A DNA stretch of 36,845 nt from Actinomycetes bacterium (GTDB lineage Bacteria > Actinomycetota > Acidimicrobiia > Acidimicrobiales > RAAP-2), in contig JAKBTL010000103.1 in assembly GCA_021844425.1 (NCBI GenBank), positions 1 to 36,845 of the forward strand. The letters run 5' to 3'. Position 1 is the stretch's first letter. Each line of letters starts with the position of its first letter. The translations under genes were made by a program, and so were the position numbers. Shown here piece by piece: positions 5,828 to 19,301 of the stretch. Below the pieces are notes generated by a model. It made no database searches. It was not told where the DNA came from and saw only the letters and a program-made list of their open reading frames with translations.

Positions 5828-6919
5828 TCAGCTCTCCGCTCCGTGGACGACCGCGCCGATCCGGGTGTGCATCGCGACCGCGACGATGATGATGATCCCG
5901 ACCACCGCCTGATACCAGTAGGGCGACACCCCGCTCAAGATGAGGCCGCTCGCGAGCATCTGGAGGATCACCGTCCCCACGACGATGCCGACCATCGAGC
6001 CGCGCCCGCCCGTCAGCGCGCATCCCCCCACGACCGACGCCGCGATCGCCTCGAGCTGGTACGCGCTGCCGTAGCCGGCAGACATGGAGCCCAAGTGCGC
6101 GAGCTGGACCGCGCCTGCGAAGGCGGCCAGCATCCCGCACAGCACGAACGCGAGGACGCGGGTCCGCGCCACGGCGACCCCCGCCTCCCGGGCCGCCATG
6201 CGTTTCCCGCCGATCGCATAGATCCAGTTGCCCGTCACGGTCCGGTGGAGCACGACGCCGACGACGAGCGCGATCCCGAGCCACCACAGGATCTCCGAGC
6301 GCATCTGGTCGCCGATGAAGCCGCCGAGCACGTTGAGCAGGGTCGGGGTAGGGGGAAGGATCGTGATGGTGGTCCCGCCGGTCACGATGAGCACCACCGC
6401 GCTCCACAGGAAGTACGTCCCGAGCGTGGCGATGAACGACGGGATGTTGAGGAACACCGTGACGATGCCGTTCAGGAGCCCGATCCCGATCCCGATGCCC
6501 AGGTCGACCAGCAGGCCCTCGATCGGCGGGTACCCGTCGTGGACCATGGTGGCCATGACCAGCGCTGCGAAGGCGAAGTTGGCGCCCACCGAGAGGTCGA
6601 ACTCGCCAGAGATCATGAGGAACCCGACCCCGACGGACACGATGCCCAGCTCGGCGGCGCTGCTCCCGATGCCGCCCCACGTCTGGAAGCTGTCGAAGGT
6701 GCCGCTCGAGGCGAGCGAGAAGACGGCGAAGAGGACGACACCGACCGCGATGATGCCGAACTCCCGCTGGCGGACGAGGCGCGTCAGCGGGGAGCCGCTG
6801 CCCCACCTCGAGAGCGCAGGAGCCTCCGGGGCGACCACGCCTCCACCCGGTCCGCCCGACGTCGGCGCGGACGAAGCCTCCCTGCTCCTGAAGCCGGATC
6901 CCATTGTCCTCAGGCTCAC
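5828..6919 (-). CDS. Sugar ABC transporter permease, RbsC/FrcB family
   Basis: This is an inner-membrane permease of the BPD_transp_2 type with 8-10 hydrophobic helices, forming the translocation channel for the importer. GEFDLSVGAN after the second helix and NIPSFIATLGT in the middle are classic RbsC-family segments, and the EAIAASVVGG region near the C-terminus contacts the ATPase in this family. I place the start at GTG 6919 because GGGGGAG lies 7 bases upstream. An ATG at 6904 gives a product 5 residues shorter. The first 50 residues are Gly/Ser/Pro-rich and probably cytosolic. The 155-base gap to the binding-protein gene holds a strong stem-loop that could set the ratio of binding protein to membrane components. 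Confidence 0.92.
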   Translation of the reverse strand: MSLRTMGSGFRSREASSAPTSGGPGGGVVAPEAPALSRWGSGSPLTRLVRQREFGIIAVGVVLFAVFSLASSGTFDSFQTWGGIGSSAAELGIVSVGVGFLMISGEFDLSVGANFAFAALVMATMVHDGYPPIEGLLVDLGIGIGIGLLNGIVTVFLNIPSFIATLGTYFLWSAVVLIVTGGTTITILPPTPTLLNVLGGFIGDQMRSEILWWLGIALVVGVVLHRTVTGNWIYAIGGKRMAAREAGVAVARTRVLAFVLCGMLAAFAGAVQLAHLGSMSAGYGSAYQLEAIAASVVGGCALTGGRGSMVGIVVGTVILQMLASGLILSGVSPYWYQAVVGIIIIVAVAMHTRIGAVVHGAES

Positions 6920-18635: not shown

Positions 18636-19109
18636 TCAGCCGCGCTCGAGGTCGGCGAGGTCGGCGAGGTCGGCGAGCACCATGGCGGCGAAGCCTTCGA
18701 CGTCGGTCACGTCGTAGGAGCGCCGGATGACTCCCGAAGGGTCGATCAGGTAGGCGATCCGCTTCGCGTAGTCGGCGTACTGCTCGCCCGGCGCCCGGAC
18801 AACCTCGTAGCGCCGCCCCACTTCACGGTCGGTGTCCGAGAGGAGCCGGAACGGAAAACCCTCGGCGACGCAGAACGCCTTGTTCTCCCCAGGCGTGTCG
18901 AAGGACGCGCCGAGCACCACTGCGCCGGCCTCCTGGAGCTCTTCGGACCTGTCACGCAGGCCCCGTCCCTGGATCGTTCAGCCAGGCGTCGATGCCTTCG
19001 GGTACCACCACAGCACGACCCAGTGACCTCGCTCGTCGGCGAGGCGCACCTCGGTGCCATCCTGGTCGGGAAGGGTGAAGTCGGGTGCGACCGTTCCTGG
19101 AGCGAGCAT
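18636..19109 (-). CDS. Peroxiredoxin (BCP/AhpE-like) with in-frame TGA at the peroxidatic Cys: likely selenoprotein
   Basis: Translated with the internal TGA as one residue (U), this is a full-length 157-residue thioredoxin-fold peroxiredoxin that would reduce hydroperoxides. It starts MLAPGTVAPDFTLPDQDG and continues to WWYPKASTPG-U-TIQGRG, where the family has the peroxidatic Cys in PGCT; the TGA at 18980-18978 is codon 44. The protein then carries on in the same frame through RDRSEEL, VVLGASFDTP, LLSDTDREVG and YLIDPSGVIRR. No frameshift is needed and no other codon is disturbed. A 7-bp stem-loop begins 14 bases after the TGA. ATG 19109 has AGGA upstream; ATG 19118 is possible. The normal terminator is also TGA. 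The alternative is a TGC-to-TGA nonsense mutation or sequencing error. A second Cys (KAFC) lies downstream. Confidence 0.8.
18648..18677 (-). repeat. 9-bp coding repeat at peroxiredoxin C-terminus
   Basis: Three 9-bp units plus a remnant encode the repeated Ala-Asp-Leu run (LADLADLADL) at the end of the protein, just before ERG and the stop codon. Confidence 0.85.
18945..18963 (-). promoter_or_regulatory. SECIS-like stem-loop after the internal TGA
   Basis: GGGCCTG pairs with CAGGTCC (one G-U) around the loop CGTGA. The stem starts 14 bases and the loop 21 bases after the TGA. Bacterial SECIS elements lie within the reading frame directly downstream of the UGA, with a small apical loop usually containing GU, about 16-37 bases away; this one fits. 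A bulged U as in the E. coli fdhF element is not seen. Folding was done by eye. Confidence 0.55.
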
Positions 19110-19161
19110 GGTCGCCATCCTACCGGGCTGCCCGGCCCTCCGGCCAGCGTCGTCCGAAGCC

Positions 19162-19301
19162 CTCGGCCCGCGTCGAGCGCAGCGCCAGCCTCGGCCCGCG
19201 TCGAGCGCAGCGCCAGCCTCGGCCCGCGTCGAGCGCAGCGCCAGCCTCAGCCCGCGTCGAGCGCAGCGCCAGCCTCAGCCCGCGTCGAGCGCAGCGCGGA
19301 G
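19162..19301. repeat. 28-bp tandem repeat, five copies, seeded by the trpA 3' end
   Basis: Units at 19162, 19190, 19218, 19246 and 19274 are near-identical (CTCGG or CTCAG start); the fifth diverges in its last bases as it enters trpA. The unit contains trpA's final codons (RAALDAG) and TGA. The repeats occupy most of the gap between trpA and the peroxiredoxin start. There are no spacers. Confidence 0.95.

Follow-up and report, generated by a model that had tools for sequence, protein, structure and literature searches.

A peroxiredoxin gene with a conserved in-frame TGA at its peroxidatic codon, a probable selenoprotein of an acidimicrobial actinomycete

The minus strand of the window, i.e. 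the whole stretch of 36,845 nucleotides that we have analysed, carries a peroxiredoxin gene, the features of which are collected in Table 1. When TGA is read as selenocysteine (Sec, U), the translation runs through 157 residues with a single internal TGA, at U44; this bears out the description given in the initial annotation, i.e. a complete peroxiredoxin frame that is broken by one TGA at the codon of the peroxidatic cysteine, and all the motifs that were quoted there on either side of the TGA are present in frame. The same source expected that ordinary gene calling would split or drop the gene, and the table 11 listing indeed holds no open reading frame of at least 100 amino acids in this frame.

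Table 1. Positions of the peroxiredoxin gene and of its features in the window.
Feature	Coordinates	Strand	Basis
Predicted Sec peroxiredoxin gene (BCP/PrxQ type), 157 residues	18636..19109	minus	read-through translation, Pfam, orthologues
In-frame TGA, codon 44, peroxidatic position (TPG-U), predicted to be read as Sec	18978..18980	minus	sequence and homologues
Terminal TGA of the peroxiredoxin gene	18636-18638	minus	translation
Bacterial SECIS-like hairpin, 7-bp stem, loop CGUGA, 15 to 33 nt past the TGA	18945..18963	minus	fold and conservation
Codon 49 (Arg), Cys in PGCTxxxC-type homologues	18963..18965	minus	homologue rows
Codon 80 (Cys), possible resolving residue	18870..18872	minus	aligns with 5iox residue 84

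The Pfam domain AhpC-TSA (PF00578) covers residues 5-130 (8.4e-34), and the nearest solved chains are those named "bacterioferritin comigratory protein" (5iox, 6.4e-23), while the chain of Rv2238c (1xxu), which we take to be AhpE, is a weaker match (1.2e-10); since the 5iox chains match better than 1xxu, BCP/PrxQ suits the gene better than AhpE. None of the listed NCBIfam models is reached at its cut-off: the top model is PRK09437 (107.7 against 140), and the thiol peroxidase model Prx-SUH (NF045827) gives 33.4 bits against a cut-off of 298. At the C-terminus, a 9-bp tandem repeat (18647-18677, 3.4 copies) encodes the stretch LADLADLADL, absent from the relatives whose translations were compared; a second tandem repeat, of 28 bp (19161-19297, 4.9 copies, 99% matches), is located between the peroxiredoxin gene and trpA. 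Among five same-genus loci, nucleotide similarity reaches the trp genes (19245 upward) in four (L055, L056, L058 and L059; not L057) and extends on the GntR side in two; the comparison of these five loci has revealed no functional link from the gene neighbourhood, and the search of a plasmid collection has given no match.

The state of codon 44 has been compared at three scales. In the first, a sample of 61 genomes (the genome of the window and 60 relatives), an orthologue at 6e-45 or better is found in ten genomes; nine of these copies have one internal TGA, located at codon 44 in every case, and the tenth has none, with TGC at this codon (locus L029, identical with L058, in genome G011; 75% identical to our gene, genome 59% complete). 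One weaker match with an internal TGA (L035) also has TGC at codon 44. Low-score peroxiredoxin-like matches with one TGA (e.g. G002:C82, G007:C141 and G009:C99) are possibly other selenoproteins or merely gene ends. In the second, a class sample of 395 genomes, 42 have a match at 1e-30, with an internal TGA in 39 and none in three; codon 44 is TGA in all 30 loci examined out of those 39 genomes. The scan of genome contigs, from which the best 80 of 371 relatives were taken, places the near loci among those 80 in Actinomycetes and Acidimicrobiales metagenome-assembled genomes. In the third, 133 homologue rows, which are the top matches of searches with this protein and thus an uneven sample of the family, codon 44 is TGA in 49 and a Cys codon in 84; five loci (L055-L059), the matched sequences of which are identical to those of L026-L030, were dropped ahead of these counts. 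The 49 Sec rows comprise 39 from the actinomycetal group of the window (52-99% identical; L060 and L138 are one sequence), nine from Marinimicrobia and one deltaproteobacterial record. The gene thus has an in-frame TGA where homologues carry Cys, as expected of a bacterial selenoprotein.

These comparisons bear directly on the initial annotation, which judged that a random nonsense mutation would strike the one residue where Sec is functional only by coincidence: the same codon is TGA in 38 further rows of the group. Its question whether relatives carry TGC or TGA has a divided answer, with independent assemblies retaining the TGA and one copy, L029, having TGC; the extra stops that it named as contrary evidence are absent from the TGA copies compared, which are open, save for codon 44, until the terminal stop.

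Our second line of evidence is the structure that follows the TGA. A bacterial SECIS element is described, in the available text of PMC1088965, as a stem-loop directly downstream of the UGA with a G in its small apical loop; the hairpin of Table 1 has this arrangement, and the 45-nt stretch of the window, taken alone, folds no better than its dinucleotide shuffles (z 0.08). No Rfam family matches anywhere in the window at the gathering thresholds. The signal lies in the comparison: at least six of the seven stem pairs are formed in 47 of the 49 Sec rows (the two exceptions being L031 and L135) versus four of the 84 Cys rows, with mean values of 6.7 pairs for Sec rows (5.1 after synonymous recoding) and 3.7 for Cys rows (3.7 after recoding). 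The arms of the stem vary among the Sec rows, in 24 combinations, with the pairing being kept; the loops mostly start with CGUGA, the others being CGGGAU (seven rows) and CGUGCCA (one row). The fold energy relative to synonymous recoding gives a mean z of -2.27 in 21 Sec rows, 13 of them below -2, and 40 of the 83 Cys rows average 0.02, with two of them below -2; in L031, L033 and L072 the z value of the hairpin is above -1.1. As the tested positions were picked after viewing the folds of the Sec rows, the Cys rows are the sole independent control of these comparisons.

The sequence beyond the TGA is under purifying selection: relative to the two nearest copies (L026 and L027), dN is 0.03 and dS is 0.23 and 0.33, with 4, 1, 19 and 2, 4, 24 differences at the three codon positions, respectively; the three same-genus copies that lie further away give a dN of 0.18-0.20 and a dS of 0.41-0.48. 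The TGA could also be a nonsense mutation in what was once a Cys peroxiredoxin gene and is now a decaying pseudogene. The genome of the window does contain two further stop-free homologues (39% and 25% identical), the closer of which is an uninterrupted BCP-like gene, and the loss of our gene could therefore be tolerated; against this stand the low dN past the TGA, the conserved hairpin and the occurrence of the same TGA in the 38 other rows of the group, and we regard a pseudogene as very improbable.

A search for the Sec machinery, proposed in the initial annotation, has found it in the same genome (G000; 3.0 Mb, 138 contigs, 91.8% complete). A tRNA-Sec gene is located at C93:18412-18503 (67.8 bits, cut-off 47), the sole one over the cut-off among the 13 matches listed, and ARAGORN reports a tRNA-SeC with anticodon tca at the same position; contig C58 carries consecutive genes for a SelB-like protein, selD (322.5 bits, cut-off 125) and selA (380.7 bits, cut-off 267.9). 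The SelB-like gene is below the cut-off of TIGR00475 (213.9 against 242.25) and has the GTPase, SelB beta-barrel and SelB-wing_3 domains of Pfam; selA, selB, selC and selD are thus all present, with SelB being assigned by its Pfam domains. Across the 61 genomes, selA is over the cut-off in all nine genomes with a TGA orthologue versus 18 of the 52 others, G011 among the 18 (hypergeometric 2.7e-4, uncorrected for kinship), and tRNA-Sec is over the cut-off in eight of the nine, the exception being G005 (58% complete). The opinion that Sec would be unusual in an actinomycete of this kind is not borne out, with selA above the cut-off in 27 of the 61 genomes, our own included. For the synthesis of the mycothiol that the initial annotation assumed, the best candidate is an MshC-like gene (G000:C75:12228-13325), which scores 416.6 bits and is under the cut-off of 485.1.

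A changed genetic code, in which TGA would specify one of the standard residues (Trp or Gly), has in its favour that the frame is open whichever residue the TGA stands for; it is contradicted by the gene itself, which terminates in TGA, as do several of the relatives' copies, by the tca-anticodon tRNA at the locus examined (L001), which is tRNA-Sec, and by the Cys of the homologues at codon 44, and we give it next to no credence. That codon 44 was misread in sequencing or misassembled is less likely still: the genome is in 138 contigs, of which the window is one, and yet TGA occurs at the same codon in separate assemblies of other species.

Two other genes of the genome have an in-frame TGA, and both support the Sec reading of the peroxiredoxin gene. 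The first (L024, contig C93, 4703 onward on the plus strand, TGA at 5921) encodes a fusion of an NHL/YNCE beta-propeller with a redoxin, with the motif FASW-TGA-GPC, and adjoins the tRNA-Sec gene; it is a candidate second selenoprotein, and its assignment to NF041054 has been rejected (46.3 against a cut-off of 300). The other (L170, contig C23, TGA at 1726) is a formate dehydrogenase alpha gene with the motif SCNRT-TGA-HAPS (606.8 bits, under the cut-off of 666.25); the fold past its TGA has an energy of -28.6 kcal/mol, a value that stands without a control.

The conserved TGA at codon 44, the conserved hairpin, the Sec machinery and the purifying selection together support what the initial annotation had called a probable selenoprotein: with a probability of about 0.96, as judged from sequence, the gene encodes a peroxiredoxin with Sec as the peroxidatic residue, inserted in translation at UGA44. 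By analogy with the known bacterial pathway, SelD would produce selenophosphate, SelA would form Sec-tRNA, and SelB would bind the hairpin and bring the Sec-tRNA to UGA44. In the enzyme, the selenolate would attack the peroxide and give a selenenic acid, which may be resolved by Cys80 in this protein and by an outside thiol in most relatives of the group.

Pro37, Thr41 and Arg117 are invariant across all 49 Sec rows. One PrxQ subtype has its resolving Cys five residues past the peroxidatic residue, at position 49, where many PrxQ enzymes carry it; our gene has Arg there and does not belong to this subtype. If L029, which has Gln, is left out, Cys49 occurs in 75 of the 83 remaining Cys rows versus one of the 49 Sec rows. 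Cys80, which aligns with the residue that we take to be the resolving Cys of 5iox, occurs in three of the 39 Sec rows of the group (our own and those of the two closest relatives), in five of the nine Marinimicrobia rows and in four of the 83 Cys rows, and a Sec44-Cys80 bond is possibly formed in this enzyme. In 22 of the 39 group rows there is no Cys in the aligned region; because most relatives of the group have neither Cys49 nor Cys80, an outside thiol would be needed as their reductant. More generally, peroxidatic Sec might go with the loss of Cys49, most of these proteins being one-Sec peroxidases that are recycled by an outside thiol, with selenium replacing the built-in resolving Cys; we offer this tentatively, at rather less than even odds. 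The link between Sec and the loss of Cys49 may also stem from one ancestral event, as the tree gives no sign of independent origins.

The tree of the 133 rows requires two changes of the Sec/Cys label. L029, the TGC copy, is located inside the 40-row clade of the group (100/97), sister to five same-genus Sec rows; it retains all seven hairpin pairs, as do 8% of recodings, and its genome has selA and tRNA-Sec. Remnants of a Sec-to-Cys change have been described before, in the accessible part of PMC1794560, and a recent change of this kind is probable for L029, as the simplest reading. Without L029, one Sec/Cys change is required, with a support of 80/2 and in 83% of bootstrap trees; separate Sec origins for the Marinimicrobia and for the group of the window, which had been entertained, were therefore dropped, and a single transition, weakly supported, may suffice. 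The Sec rows without Cys49, the Cys rows with Cys49 and the TGC copy that keeps its hairpin offer a natural comparison for the question of how a peroxidase gains from selenium. The gene moreover encodes a well-supported selenoprotein of the sort missed by ordinary annotation, and its internal-TGA homologues at 1e-30 or better occur in 39 of the 395 sampled genomes of the class.

Among known systems, PrxU (NF040737), which we identify with the Sec peroxiredoxin from Eubacterium acidaminophilum, is likewise a peroxiredoxin by name, and our gene scores 49.4 bits against the cut-off of 270 of its model. The Cys PrxQ/BCP protein of 5iox is the best sequence match among the solved chains, with its residue 84 aligning with Cys80; it differs in having Cys at its peroxidatic site, where Sec is predicted here. 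The closest counterpart is a published selenoprotein family, the Sec-Prx with TxxU of COG1225 (Bcp), represented by 43 sequences in the consulted part of PMC1088965, and also listed in a table of PMC9312934 and in the tabulated families of PMC13188914, which also cites a Sec peroxiredoxin from Eubacterium acidaminophilum; as far as their available texts go, PMC5029168 counts 91 such proteins in 78 organisms, and PMC1794560 has a peroxiredoxin selenoprotein in Symbiobacterium, placed there under Actinobacteria. In the literature retrieved, itself partial, selenocysteine in Acidimicrobiia or Acidimicrobiales appears solely in a paper on sponge symbionts, the bins of which belong to various phyla and are reported to have SelA and SelB, and Sec peroxiredoxins together with a resolving Cys lead to nothing beyond chloroplast peroxidases; the available portions of PMC1088965 and PMC9312934 contain no statement on the actinomycetal group and its lack of Cys49. 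Our protein has T41-P-G-U44 within PF00578, the features by which we place it in COG1225, and since this family is already published, the gene adds another member to it. The two have in common the peroxiredoxin fold family, a peroxidatic Sec (predicted, in our case), the T-x-x-U motif and a SECIS-like hairpin past the UGA; we have found no difference of kind, and what is local to the group of the window is its near-universal lack of Cys49.
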